DNA of 43,564 nucleotides from positions 1 through 43,564 of the forward strand of contig CAIVGN010000128.1 of NCBI GenBank assembly GCA_903905455.1, given 5' to 3'. Position 1 is the stretch's first letter; every line of letters starts with the position of its first letter. The translations under genes were made by a program, and so were the position numbers. The notes beneath the pieces were generated by a model. That model saw only the letters and a list, made by a program, of their open reading frames with translations, was not told the origin of the DNA and did not search any database. The DNA comes from an uncultured Archangium sp. Lineage in GTDB: Bacteria > Myxococcota > Myxococcia > Myxococcales > Myxococcaceae. Shown in pieces: positions 1,438-6,615 of this stretch.

Positions 1438-2319
1438 CTACTTCGTGACCGCCGACTGCTCCGGCAGCATCGCGGCGTCGACGGCGCGCACCTCGTTGCC
1501 GTCGAACCCCCGGAAGGCCACCGTGCGCGGCCCCCGCAGCTGCGCCAGCTCATAGAGCTCGTTGTACGCCTCGAACACCGGGGCGGACTTCGCCAGCCGC
1601 TCCAGCGCGCGCCCCACGGCGAGCGGGTACTGCGCCTTCGCCTCGGCGACGAGGGAGGCGACCTGCTGCGCGGTGTTGGCCTCGAGCTGGGCCGCGTCGA
1701 GGCGCCCCTCTTCGAAGAGCACCGCCCGGGCCTGCTCGAGCCGCGTGGCCACCATGCCGAACACCTGCCGCGAGACCTCGGGGGTGAGCGCCACGTTGCG
1801 CACGAAGACCTGGTCGACCTTCACGCCCCAGCGCTCGGTCTCGGCGGAGACATCGCGCTGCAGCTGCGCGCCGAGCTCGCTGCGGTCGTCGAGGATCTGC
1901 TGGAAGTCGCGGCTGCCGAGGATGGACATCGCCGCGTGCACCACGAGGTTCTGCGTCGCCTGGTCCCAGTCTTCGACGGCGAAGAGCGCCTTCTCGGCGT
2001 CGATGACCCGCAGCTCGACCCACAGGTCGGCCACCACCGTGGTGCCCCGCGCGTCGTTGACGTGCAGGTCGTGAATCACGCGGAAGTCGCGCGCCAGCGA
2101 CACCTGCTGCACCTTCACCCACGGCAGCCACTTCGTCGGCAGCACGTGGAGGCCCGGCTTCTCGAGCCTGGCGATGAGCTTGCCGAAGCTGGTCACCAGG
2201 GCCACGTGCTCGTCCTCCACGCCCACCCCGAAGCCGCTGGCGAAGAGCCCGAGCAACGAGCACGCCACCACGCCCGCCGCGGCGCCGCCAAACAGCATCA
2301 TCCAGTCCTGGGCGTTCAT
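1438..2319 (-). CDS. SPFH/Band-7 membrane protein B
   Basis: 293 residues; ATG at 2319 overlaps the stop of the gene before it by four bases (ATGA), so the two are probably co-translated. One N-terminal membrane segment (about 7-30) is followed by an SPFH domain: EDEHVALVTSFGKLIARLEKPGLHVL at about 35-60, the Band-7 entry signature, then strand-rich sequence and a helical C-terminal part with ARAVLFEEGRLDAAQLEANT typical of stomatin/HflC coiled coils. SPFH proteins form membrane-bound oligomeric cages that organise or control other membrane proteins. This one pairs with the next upstream gene as HflK pairs with HflC, but no FtsH protease gene is nearby. The partner encoded in the same operon is the SulP-carbonic anhydrase fusion. 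Confidence 0.9.
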   Translation of the reverse strand: MNAQDWMMLFGGAAAGVVACSLLGLFASGFGVGVEDEHVALVTSFGKLIARLEKPGLHVLPTKWLPWVKVQQVSLARDFRVIHDLHVNDARGTTVVADLWVELRVIDAEKALFAVEDWDQATQNLVVHAAMSILGSRDFQQILDDRSELGAQLQRDVSAETERWGVKVDQVFVRNVALTPEVSRQVFGMVATRLEQARAVLFEEGRLDAAQLEANTAQQVASLVAEAKAQYPLAVGRALERLAKSAPVFEAYNELYELAQLRGPRTVAFRGFDGNEVRAVDAAMLPEQSAVTK

Positions 2320-3167
2320 GACGTCCCCCCTTCCTTGACGAAGAGCGTGCGCGCCTCGGACCACACCTCGGCCTTGCGCCGCGAGCGGTACGCCGGCAGC
2401 ACGCCGGCCACGTGCAGCGCGCCCAGGTGCCGGCCGAGCACGTCGATCTCCGACTCCACCGCGGCGGCCTTCGCCGAGGCGATCTGCACGCCGCGCTCGG
2501 CGGCCATCACCTTCTGCGCGCACTCGCTCTCGGCGCGGAAGCGCATCGAGTCCGCTTCGGCCCGGGCGCTCATCACCGCGTTGAGCGCGTCGGCCAGCTC
2601 GTCGGGCGGGTGGATGTCGGTGATGTCCACGGCCTGGAAGTCGACGCCGTAGCGGTCGTTCAGCTGCTTGCGCGCGAAGTCCGCGATGCGCTGGTTGACC
2701 AACTGCCGGTCCTTGCGCACCACGGCGAAGGCCCCACCCAGCGCCTCGCCCTGGGCCGCCTTCACGTTGGCGATCTCGTTGCGCAGCAGGCTCGAGAACA
2801 GGCCGGCCACGTGCTCTTTGCGGTGGTGCAGCCCGAAGAGGTACTTGGCGATGCCCTCGCGCCGGGGCGCGTAGCGCAGCATCGACTGGAGCCGGATGAC
2901 CGTGCCGTCGTTGAGCATCACGTGCTCTGCCGACTCGCCGCCCAGGGTCACCAACTGCTCGCGCAACGAGACGATGTGCGCGACCTCGAAGGGCCACTTG
3001 AAGTGCAGGCCGGGGCCCGCGAGGGCCAGCGCGCCGTCGGGGCCGTGCTTCGCCGCGCCGAAACGACACAGCACGCCGACCTGCCCCTCTTCCACGCGGA
3101 AGTAGCTGTCGCGCGCCTTCCACACGAGGAAGAGCGCGATGCCGATGATGATGCCCAGGAAGAACAT
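2316..3167 (-). CDS. SPFH/Band-7 membrane protein A
   Basis: 283 residues with an N-terminal membrane helix (about 2-17, FFLGIIIGIALFLVW). An SPFH domain follows: RVEEGQVGVLCRFGAAK at about 24-40, AGPGLHFKWPFEVAHIVSLREQ, and NGTV-like beta segments. A long Ala/Glu-rich helix (SARAEADSMRFRAESECAQKV, about 200-220) is typical of stomatin and HflK oligomerisation helices. The start lies 15 bases after the stop of the transporter gene, so the operon reads transporter, SPFH-A, SPFH-B. HflK/HflC-like pairs usually restrain a membrane protease; stomatins modulate transporters and channels. The operon partner makes the second role the more likely one, but that is inference. Confidence 0.9.
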   Translation of the reverse strand: MFFLGIIIGIALFLVWKARDSYFRVEEGQVGVLCRFGAAKHGPDGALALAGPGLHFKWPFEVAHIVSLREQLVTLGGESAEHVMLNDGTVIRLQSMLRYAPRREGIAKYLFGLHHRKEHVAGLFSSLLRNEIANVKAAQGEALGGAFAVVRKDRQLVNQRIADFARKQLNDRYGVDFQAVDITDIHPPDELADALNAVMSARAEADSMRFRAESECAQKVMAAERGVQIASAKAAAVESEIDVLGRHLGALHVAGVLPAYRSRRKAEVWSEARTLFVKEGGTS

Positions 3168-3182
3168 GCGACCTCGCCTTGC

Positions 3183-5264
3183 TTAGAAACGTTCGTTGGA
3201 GGGGCGAGCCCAGCGCTCGTCCCAGGATGCGGGCTCGTCACCACCAGCGTCGAGACGCGGCGGCGGGTGCCCGGCGATGACCAGCCGGCGGTACGCGGCG
3301 GCCAGCCCGCGGTTCACGTCGACCACGTCTTCATTGAAGTGCCGGTGGGCCTCGGTCGAGGGCGGCAGCGCGTCGGCCTTGGCCTGGGTGTCCACCACCG
3401 TGCCCGCGGGCACGTGGCGCCCGTCCGCCACCTCCACGCCCACCACCACCGCGGCGATGCCCACCGAGCAGCCGCTGCCCAGCACGGTGTCGTGCACCAC
3501 GGCCTTGAAGCCGATGAAGGTGTCGTCGCCCACGTAGCTGGGCCCGTGCACCAGGGCGTCGTGCGCGATGGACACGTTGCGGCCCACGTAGACCGCCCAC
3601 TTCTCGCCGCCGACCTCCACGTGCTTCTGCTTGAGCGCGTGGATGACGGCCCCATCCTGGATGTTGGAGTTGGCGCCGATGAAGAACGGCGTGCCCTCGT
3701 CAGCCCGCACCGAGCTGCCCGCGGCGATGTGCACGTTCTCGCCGAGCACCACCTGCCCGATGACGCTCGCCTGCGGGTGCACGTAGGCCGTGGCCGGAAT
3801 GTGTGGGCGGCTGCGCACGTGGCTGAGCCATTCGGCGGCGCTCCCCGTGGTGTCGACCGTGGGCCGCCGCGCCAGCGCCCGCTCGTGGCCCAGCTGCGCG
3901 CGCACGCCCGCCTCGAGCTGCGGGGCCTCTTCGGGCTCGGTCTGGTTGCGGTGAAAGAGGAACCAGTCGACCCCGTGGAGCGCGAGGCCGGCGAGCAGGC
4001 CCAGCATCAGGTGCCCGCCCACGGTGCCCACGCAGGTCACCACGAACGCCAGCGCCTCGAGCTTCGACTCCTTGAAGAGGTGCCCCAGCGTCGCGAGGTC
4101 GACGAGGCGCACCCCGATGACGCACAGCAACCCCGCGAGCGCCGCCAGCGGCACGCGCGCGATGAGGCTGCTCATCAACAACACCGCCGCGCCCAGGAAG
4201 AGCGCGTGGAGCACCGTGGCCACCTTGGTGCGCGCGCCGCTCTGCACGTTGACGCCGCTGCGCACCACGACGCCCGTCACCGGCATGCCCGCGAACAGGC
4301 CCACCACCACGTTCGCCAGGCCCTGGCCGAAGAGCTCGAGGCTCGGCTGGTAGGGCCGCACCGCGTCCTTGCCCAGCATGCGGTCGACGGCGCGCGCGGC
4401 GAGCAAGGACTCGGCCGAGGCGAGGAAGGCCAGCGGCACCACCGCGAGCAGCAGCTCCCCGAAGCGAGCCAGCTCGATCTGCGGGAACACCAACGGAGGG
4501 AAGGTGCTCGGCACGTCGCCCACGCGCGTAATGTCCCAGCCCACGTAGTTGGCCACGAAGGTCACCAGGCCCACGCCGACGATGGCCGCGGGGAAGCGCT
4601 TGAAGCGCGCCATGCCCACCACCAGCAGCGCCACGAAGAGCCCCGAGACGACCGCCAGCCACTCCACCTCGTGCAGCCAGGAGGGCCGGCCGATCATCGC
4701 CGCCAGCTCCGACACCCGGTAGTCAAAGCCGAGCAGCTCAGGCAACTGCTGGTCGAGCAGCTTGAGGCCCACGCCGGTGGTGAAGCCCGCCAGCACGCTC
4801 TCGGGCACGTGCTTCATCAGGTGGCCGGCGCGGGTGAAGGCCAACACCAGCTGGAAGGCCCCCACCAACACCGCCGCCAACGCCACGCCCACGGGCCCGA
4901 AACCCAGCGCGATGGCCGCGACGATGGACGCCAACGCCGCCGCCGGCCCGGTCACCTGCAACGGCGCGCCGCCCACGAGACCTGCGATCAGCCCGCCGAT
5001 GGCCCCGGCCACCAGCCCCGCGGACGGAGGCAACCCGCTCGCCACCGCCAGCGCCAGGTTGAGCGGCAGCGCCACCGCGGCGACCGTCAGCCCGGCCAGC
5101 ACGTCCTGCGGCAGGCTCTTCTGCTGGTGGATGTCGGTGAAGGTTCCCCAGAAGCTCGAGCGCATCTGGCGCCAGTCGGCGACGAGGGGCGTCCAGAAGG
5201 ACAGGACCGGCGGTTTGAGGCCCCGGCCGATGCGCCGGATACGTGGGGCTTTTTGGGACACCAC
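3183..5264 (-). CDS. SulP-type anion transporter fused to gamma-carbonic anhydrase
   Basis: 693 residues, GTG start at 5264. Residues about 50-435 are a SulP (SLC26-type) transporter: DVLAGLTVAAVALPLNLALA (54-73), GGAPLQVTGPAA (98-109), then many membrane helices up to LALHGVDWFLF. The STAS domain normally found after the last helix is absent. In its place residues about 484-660 form a left-handed beta-helix gamma-carbonic anhydrase. The match to the archaeal Cam signature is close: RADEG with Arg520, Asp522 and Glu523; NIQDGAVIHA with Gln536, Asp537 and zinc ligand His542; SIAHDALVHGP with zinc ligands His568 and His573. The Cam proton-shuttle Glu84 (HALE) is Lys545 here, and the following loop is about 10 residues shorter. 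The likely role is bicarbonate import with CO2/HCO3- interconversion at the inner face. Sulfate as substrate is the alternative. Confidence 0.93.
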   Translation of the reverse strand: MVSQKAPRIRRIGRGLKPPVLSFWTPLVADWRQMRSSFWGTFTDIHQQKSLPQDVLAGLTVAAVALPLNLALAVASGLPPSAGLVAGAIGGLIAGLVGGAPLQVTGPAAALASIVAAIALGFGPVGVALAAVLVGAFQLVLAFTRAGHLMKHVPESVLAGFTTGVGLKLLDQQLPELLGFDYRVSELAAMIGRPSWLHEVEWLAVVSGLFVALLVVGMARFKRFPAAIVGVGLVTFVANYVGWDITRVGDVPSTFPPLVFPQIELARFGELLLAVVPLAFLASAESLLAARAVDRMLGKDAVRPYQPSLELFGQGLANVVVGLFAGMPVTGVVVRSGVNVQSGARTKVATVLHALFLGAAVLLMSSLIARVPLAALAGLLCVIGVRLVDLATLGHLFKESKLEALAFVVTCVGTVGGHLMLGLLAGLALHGVDWFLFHRNQTEPEEAPQLEAGVRAQLGHERALARRPTVDTTGSAAEWLSHVRSRPHIPATAYVHPQASVIGQVVLGENVHIAAGSSVRADEGTPFFIGANSNIQDGAVIHALKQKHVEVGGEKWAVYVGRNVSIAHDALVHGPSYVGDDTFIGFKAVVHDTVLGSGCSVGIAAVVVGVEVADGRHVPAGTVVDTQAKADALPPSTEAHRHFNEDVVDVNRGLAAAYRRLVIAGHPPPRLDAGGDEPASWDERWARPSNERF

Positions 5265-5281: not shown

Positions 5282-5570
5282 ACTAGGTTATTGCCAGTGA
5301 GAATGGGGCACATCACCCCGGAATTCGGCTGGGAGCGCGGGAAGCGCGAGCACCTGCACCACGAGGCCGAGGCGCCGAAGCGCACCTGTTCCCCGTGCTG
5401 AGCTTCGTTCGGCCCACACCATCGCGCGGAGCCCACTGCGTGACCGTTACCTCGAGCGGTGTCGCCATGTGAGGGGTCAGCCTGCGCGGTGGCCGAGGCG
5501 CTGGCGCCGGTTCTGCTGACTGCAGCGGTCGACCGCGGGCGGGCGTTTCGAGGCCTTCGATGGAGAGCTT

Positions 5571-6076
5571 GCGTCTCCTGCGATCGGCAGAGGTCGTGTG
5601 TTTGTTTGGGTGCCCGGGATCGCCCCAATCCCTTCCTTTCCCCCCGGGGAAAGGGGAGCGCTCATCTGCCGCGCGGGCTAGACGAGCGCACAGAAATTCG
5701 GGGCGTGGCCTCAAGTTTCAGGAACGGTCGGTGGTGGTTCATCCACCGTCGGCCCTCGACGGTTTTCGTCAAGTGGCGACGCGGGGCGCTGAAGCAGCAG
5801 CATCTAACGGCTGCCGCTGCCCTTCGGCAGCAACTGCGGGAAGTCAGATGTTGCTGCCTGGGCGGTGGATCCGGCGCATGCCAAGACCATCGAGAAGAAG
5901 CGTCGGTATTCTGCGCGGCGGTCGGTCCTGCAAATCGAGGCCTTGCTCCATTCGACTCTGCATCCCGTCTGGCCCCCGCGGCGAGCGGTCCCCTTTCCCC
6001 AGGGGGGAAAGGAAGGGATAGGGGCGATCCCGGGCACCCGAACAACGAAGGGACCTCGGCCGATCGCAGGAGACGC
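5571..6076. mobile_element. Inverted-repeat element without genes (MITE-like or nested REP)
   Basis: The gene-free stretch 5265-6123 contains two long inverted arms, about 5571-5690 and 5950-6076. Read on opposite strands they agree at most positions, starting with GCGTCTCCTGCGATCGG and continuing through GGGTGCCCGGGATCGCCCC. Each arm also holds its own hairpin: CCTTTCCCC/GGGGAAAGG at 5635-5654 and at 5992-6012. The interior (about 5691-5949) has no frame with coding-like codon use. The structure fits a non-autonomous inverted-repeat element or a pair of REP-like elements. No target-site duplication was identified. The rest of the gap (5282-5570 and 6077-6123) shows nothing recognisable. Confidence 0.6.
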
Positions 6077-6123
6077 GACCCTCCCGCCGAAGTCGCCGCG
6101 CGACTCAACAGACCAACGCGCAG

Positions 6124-6615
6124 TCAGCTCGCGCGCTCGTGCGCACCGGCGACGGTGCCGTCGAGGAGCGCGTCGGCGAGCGACAGGATGATGCGCTGGG
6201 CGACGGCCATGTCTTCGGCGTTGGCCTTCTTGAGGATCTTCTTCACCGCGCCTTCCACCGAGAAGTCGACCGGCGTGGCGTGCTTCTCGCCCGAGCGGGT
6301 CAACGAGAACAGCGCGCGGCGGCCGTCGGCCTTGTCGCGCGAGCGCGCCAGCAGGCCCTGGGTCTCGAGGCGCTGCAGCACGCCGGTCAACGTCGAGGGG
6401 TGCACGTGCAGCACGCGCGAGAGCTCGCCGGAGCTGATGTTGGGGAAGGCGCCGATGATGCGCAGCGCGAGGCGCTGGGGCCCGGTCAGCCCGCCCTTCT
6501 TCGCCATCGCCTTGCTGCGCGCGTGGAGCGCGTGGTCGAGGGCCCAGATGCTGCTCAAGAAATCGAGCGTCTTGCCGAGCTGCAGCTCCACCGGGGCCCC
6601 ATCTTTTGCGCTCAT
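6124..6615 (-). CDS. MarR-family transcriptional regulator
   Basis: 163 residues. The winged helix-turn-helix of MarR dimers is clear: LTGPQRLALRIIGAFPNISS (about 43-62), ELSRVLHVHPSTLTGVLQRL (recognition helix region), and the wing with the DxR motif RSRDKADGRRALFSLT (about 91-106). Helices before and after would form the dimer interface. MarR proteins are usually repressors released by small phenolic or oxidant ligands and often control a divergent neighbour. Here the divergent gene is the iron-sulfur oxidoreductase at 6827, with 211 bases between the starts, but no convincing palindrome was found there. Its target is therefore unknown. Confidence 0.93.
   Translation of the reverse strand: MSAKDGAPVELQLGKTLDFLSSIWALDHALHARSKAMAKKGGLTGPQRLALRIIGAFPNISSGELSRVLHVHPSTLTGVLQRLETQGLLARSRDKADGRRALFSLTRSGEKHATPVDFSVEGAVKKILKKANAEDMAVAQRIILSLADALLDGTVAGAHERAS

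Follow-up and report, generated by a model that had tools for sequence, protein, structure and literature searches.

Fusions of a SulP anion carrier with a carbonic anhydrase (CA) are known in kind: Felce and Saier (2004) reportedly described SulP–beta-CA fusions, for example Rv3273, and read them as bicarbonate transporters. These fusions are cited in PMC6458275 and elsewhere, and the literature examples that we followed up, like those compared here, belong to the beta class. We analysed a 43,564-nucleotide stretch of DNA from an uncultured Archangium sp. (the window), which is contig 128 of an 8.6 Mb genome in 251 contigs and carries a SulP gene fused to a gamma-class CA, followed by the genes of two SPFH proteins, SPFH-A and SPFH-B. 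In the open-access literature we found neither a SulP fusion of the gamma class nor an SPFH partner described, most subscription papers lying outside this search. The original prediction for this operon, made from the letters of the window, spoke of a new kind of system. This was too strong, as SulP–CA fusions are already known, and the locus is best filed as a familiar kind of fusion of which the gamma-class form and the SPFH partner are new. We propose, with a probability of about 0.5, that the three genes work together as a single unit, in which a trimer-forming SulP–gamma-CA bicarbonate carrier would be held by a cytosolic SPFH cage.

Pfam identified a Sulfate_transp domain and hexapeptide repeats in the fusion (table 1) and gave no match to STAS, while the scan with Pfam and protein models found no beta-class Pro_CA domain, only the gamma-type hexapeptide domain. 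The C-terminal domain matched the CA models of CcmM (2e-58) and Cam (7e-58). The solved chains closest to it were those of CcmM from T. elongatus and of Cam from M. thermophila, at 2e-50 to 1e-48, and its identity is 45–54% to Cam and 44–47% to CcmM. A SulP carrying a complete gamma-CA in the place of STAS had been predicted and is borne out by these matches; the coordinates and gene order given at the time were exact, including the 15-nucleotide gap between the end of the fusion gene and the start of SPFH-A. Cam positions 59, 61, 62, 73, 75, 76, 81, 117, 122 and 202 were identical across 15 of 15 fusions, CcmM and Cam. The zinc ligands H81, H117 and H122 of Cam correspond to H542, H568 and H573 of the fusion, and the further conserved residues are R520, D522, E523, N534, Q536, D537 and N651 (the R59/D61/E62/N73/Q75/D76/N202 set of Cam). 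With all gamma-CA zinc ligands invariant, the domain is predicted to be able to bind zinc. The one of eleven Cam catalytic positions missing in the fusions, E84 of the acidic proton-shuttle loop, is also missing in CcmM. The identity of the domain as a gamma-CA rests on its sequence, because the structure model of the fusion was poor (predicted local distance difference test score, pLDDT, of 52) and fold searches with it returned no match for the CA domain. In our survey of 195 Myxococcota genomes, among which many carriers of the fusion are metagenome-assembled genomes (MAGs), the CA domain scored at least 284 bits in the fusions and the next gamma-CA at most 69 bits. No stand-alone gene close to the fused domain was found in these genomes, which suggests that the domain was gained from outside the phylum.

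Although the fusion lacks STAS, the membership of its membrane domain in SulP/SLC26 stands, STAS being a feature of most but not all SulPs. The structure model, built from 13 sequences, still matched SLC26 structures (SLC26Dg, Z 31.1; BicA, Z 28.6). In a tree of 38 SulP domains, which has long branches and was rooted at the midpoint, the gamma-CA-fused SulPs formed a single clade (support 100/100). Its sister consisted of STAS-type SulPs of the same bacterial family (96/93), and a wider group (97/95) also included beta-CA-fused and beta-CA-adjacent SulPs. BicA, SLC26Dg and DauA were placed outside this CA-linked group, an arrangement that argues for the proposed function. Since the beta-CA fusions of the same family retain STAS, the gamma and beta fusions arose separately, and CA joined SulP independently at least twice in this family. 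We further noticed SulP–beta-CA fusions at other loci of the same phylum (L119, L120, L121, L125, L122, L123), and that genomes G033, G047 and G053 hold both types. The sister STAS-type SulPs (L056, L058) adjoin genes for a sensor kinase and an NtrC-type regulator, as read from the open reading frames.

The carrier might move another anion, such as sulfate, oxalate or chloride, and the gamma-CA might then serve mainly as a trimeric holder or as a pH/CO2 sensor in the regulatory place of STAS. The domain does occupy the exact STAS position of the sister proteins, and SLC26 selectivity is not readable from sequence (PMC8298490). A mere holder, however, would not need all the catalytic residues common to Cam and CcmM to be invariant, and the fact that related SulPs were joined to a CA more than once, independently, speaks for bicarbonate. 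We consider a different anion improbable.

In the carrier pocket, the invariant E285 and R335 align with Glu347 and Arg393 of the H+/sulfate symporter AtSULTR4;1, in which Glu347 is required for H+-driven transport (PMC8298490). For transmembrane (TM) segment 8 we relied on a multiple alignment together with the ES motif, as the pairwise HMMER alignment with AtSULTR4;1 was off by four residues. At the positions of the BicA Na+ ligands D258, T262 and T302 (PMC13249358), the fusion has E285, A289 and V333, and its score against the BicA model was far under the cut-off. The pocket residues thus speak against BicA-type Na+ coupling, which we reject, and transport coupled to H+ and not to Na+ is predicted.

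The same parts could also run in the reverse direction, the gamma-CA hydrating respiratory CO2 and the carrier exporting or exchanging bicarbonate, which would dispose of CO2 and balance pH. A model for this is the red cell, where such a hand-over of bicarbonate between carbonic anhydrase and band 3 has been proposed. The Rubisco large subunit was not found in the 14 carriers examined, so there is no evident need for concentrated CO2; anion exchangers occur among SLC26 members, and a function as a pH device has been discussed for SulP/Can2 of A. ferrooxidans (PMC6458275). The TM8 glutamate, in contrast, is a typical feature of H+-coupled symporters that most mammalian exchangers lack (PMC8298490), and we regard export as rather unlikely. 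The Rubisco result supports, as far as tested, the heterotrophic host of the original prediction. Together with the absence of Rubisco-small-subunit-like repeats, the negative result in these 14 carriers also led us to reject a carboxysome reading of the CcmM-like CA.

The full fusion was present in 17 of the 195 genomes, in an uninterrupted frame and at 58–78% identity. The order fusion, SPFH-A, SPFH-B was kept at 14 further loci in six genera, down to about 44–60% identity, and most of these loci also kept the four-nucleotide overlap of the SPFH genes. A single frame in 17 genomes, with gene order kept amid differing flanks, means that the fusion is not a product of chance. Orthologues of SPFH-A adjoin the fusion in all 17 carriers (at least 308 bits) and were found in none of the 178 non-carrier Myxococcota, where the best SPFH protein reached 131 bits; this rules out the SPFH genes as chance neighbours. 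SPFH-B adjoins the fusion in 16 of the 17, the remaining contig ending inside SPFH-A. Within the bacterial family, its orthologues were found in all carriers but the one with the contig end (15 of 16) and in 0 of 80 other genomes. Conservation of the SPFH genes beside the fusion in other genomes, on which the original prediction had been staked, is therefore confirmed.

Across the 14 loci no other neighbour was shared beyond close relatives. No conserved NfeD gene, the partner known from SPFH1/SPFH2 systems, lay beside the trio there; NfeD elsewhere in the genome was not searched for. That the flanking genes differ while the trio is kept argues for the three genes being one unit, and ratios of nonsynonymous to synonymous substitution rates of 0.07–0.46 across all three (simple counting method) indicate purifying selection. 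One copy of the trio was found in a distant myxobacterial lineage (genome G186), beside genes whose order is the same in its congener G184; no fusion was found in G184 itself. The trio thus seems to have moved whole, as a block. Misbinning of this copy is made unlikely by the match of its flanking genes to the congener. A peroxiredoxin-like gene follows the trio in this lineage (L130:8741-9331), with 78% DNA identity to a gene elsewhere in the window's genome, and may have been transferred together with the block. A plasmid search returned SulP only and no fusion. Beyond Myxococcota, a single scan with six window-specific peptides covered 84,980 species, in which distant fusions would be missed; the nearest named public-genome relatives of the window were Archangium and Myxococcaceae MAGs.

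Both SPFH proteins matched Band_7 in Pfam (SPFH-A, 3e-23; SPFH-B, 2e-19), and the model of SPFH-B (pLDDT 76) matched stomatin, HflK/C and QmcA. Where the N-termini were correctly called, no Lys or Arg stood ahead of the TM segment and at least one stood behind it, except in the window's own SPFH-B. From this pattern the SPFH domains are predicted to lie on the cytosolic side, as in QmcA and unlike HflK/C, whose SPFH domains are periplasmic (PMC10434171). A stand-alone tandem SPFH pair (L164:3669-5272, equal to G000:C198:73668-75271, and L165-L170), with 25–29% identity to the operon pair, is widespread in Myxococcota, with no SulP beside it and no conserved neighbours. The operon pair probably descends from this paralogous pair.

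The SPFH pair could be a general chaperone or membrane-domain scaffold, akin to HflK/C with FtsH, that helps in the assembly or turnover of the fusion and has no catalytic role. Many Myxococcota hold the paralogous pair with no adjoining SulP, and SPFH-A and SPFH-B do score against the HflK/HflC equivalog models (37 and 47 bits). Those scores lie far under the cut-offs of 134 and 159, however; the predicted orientation is opposite to that of HflK/C, and the operon's orthologous pair was found only with the fusion. We see this role as possible, with the odds leaning against it.

In the caged carrier that we propose, the fusion would act in the inner membrane as a bicarbonate carrier of the SulP/SLC26 elevator type, its cytosolic STAS swapped for an active Cam/CcmM-type gamma-CA and its transport coupled to H+ instead of Na+. 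The active sites of gamma-CAs lie between trimer subunits, as established for Cam, so that an active fusion would bring at least three carriers together. The carrier would then assemble in threes, or in multiples of three, as opposed to the usual STAS-linked dimer. Bicarbonate leaving it on the cytosolic side would be interconverted with CO2 at once; alternatively, CO2 would be hydrated and then presented to the carrier. The two SPFH proteins, facing the cytosol as predicted, would surround the carrier trimer with a hetero-oligomeric ring or dome and so corral carrier and enzyme, in the way that UT-B is enclosed by stomatin. The stomatin dome encloses AQP1 and the UT-B trimer (PMC12407830), a direct structural precedent for an SPFH dome that houses a trimeric carrier. 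A possible docking peptide is the Arg-Phe end of the fusion (window 3186-3191), where F693 is invariant and R692 is present in 12 of 13 aligned orthologues, the other ending in Lys-Phe. In these heterotrophs the net task would probably be the supply of bicarbonate to carboxylases, pH balance or both.

Several observations weigh against this proposal. The structure model of the fusion is of low confidence, SLC26 relatives transport many anions, and STAS-type SulPs make up the sister clade. The target of the SPFH proteins could be membrane order or protein quality control and not the carrier. Each fusion-carrying genome holds 1–7 beta-CA genes besides the fusion, so the unit must offer more than CA activity, for example location. 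Furthermore, an electroneutral 1:1 H+/HCO3− carrier cannot by itself concentrate carbon, such symport being thermodynamically equal to CO2 entry, and concentration would therefore need another stoichiometry. For this reason the predicted inorganic-carbon uptake system is still hypothetical. The predicted SPFH cage, which would hold or gate the transporter–enzyme, has its precedent in the stomatin dome. Taken further, an SPFH dome over a trimeric carrier with the STAS-to-gamma-CA swap might be a membrane microcompartment that couples transport to CO2/HCO3− conversion. It would be a carboxysome-free, organelle-like inorganic-carbon device of heterotrophs whose three genes are passed on as a cassette, both by inheritance and by transfer, a view that we advance tentatively and judge doubtful as a whole.

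Table 1. Features of the three-gene locus, in window coordinates.
Feature	Position	Strand	Description
SulP–gamma-CA fusion gene	3183..5264	−	693 aa, GTG start; one open frame; 17 genomes with full-length orthologues
SulP/SLC26 membrane domain	4035..5108	−	residues 53-410; Sulfate_transp, PF00916, 8e-60; E285 (TM8), R335 (TM10) invariant; SLC26Dg fold, Z 31
Linker	3822..3974	−	residues 431-481, about 50 residues; too short for STAS, no STAS match
Gamma-class CA domain	3285..3821	−	residues 482-660, hexapeptide repeats; zinc ligands H542, H568, H573
C-terminal tail of fusion	3186..3284	−	variable; almost invariant Arg-Phe end
SPFH-A	2316..3167	−	Band_7, 283 aa, one N-terminal TM segment
SPFH-B	1438..2319	−	Band_7, 293 aa, one N-terminal TM segment; 4-nucleotide overlap with SPFH-A

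Outside the operon, an imperfect 102-nucleotide inverted repeat (window 5555-5656 and 5991-6092; 82%) looks like a small mobile element; it has the operon on one side and a MarR-type gene (6124-6615, minus strand) on the other. Near the start of the window, an open reading frame (89-814) that repeats a nearly unchanged unit of about 100 residues (NPAATYCNSTSYGELL...) possibly encodes a secreted repeat protein.

Because a putative SPFH cage is here encoded and inherited with the membrane protein presumed to be its cargo, the locus makes the question of what bacterial SPFH rings enclose directly testable. It also indicates that an enzyme of a trimeric class can take the place of STAS, the domain that links SLC26 dimers; such a swap should give the carrier a different oligomeric state. 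Finally, the locus points to bicarbonate traffic being managed in Rubisco-free bacteria.

Compared with known systems, the locus resembles the SulP–beta-CA fusions in joining SulP and CA on one chain and in its related SulP pocket. In those of the same family, however, the beta-CA comes after a retained STAS, whereas here a gamma-CA replaces STAS, the SulP belongs to a separate clade and two SPFH genes follow. The CA domain has all the zinc ligands of Cam from Methanosarcina thermophila and of CcmM from beta-carboxysomes and, like CcmM, lacks the E84 loop; unlike both, it is tethered to a membrane carrier. The fusion further differs from CcmM in ending 33 residues past the CA, in having no Rubisco-small-subunit-like repeats and in occurring where Rubisco was not found (14 carriers). 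With BicA, the cyanobacterial Na+/HCO3− symporter, it shares the SulP/SLC26 fold (Z 28.6), but the Na+ site is not kept, an Arg stands on TM10 and STAS is missing. Finally, the SPFH pair belongs with the stomatin dome, HflK/C–FtsH and QmcA–YbbJ, families whose rings or domes enclose membrane proteins (PMC12407830). The three-gene unit differs from HflK/C–FtsH and QmcA–YbbJ in containing neither an FtsH nor an NfeD gene, and from all three systems in that the operon also includes the gene of the presumed cargo.

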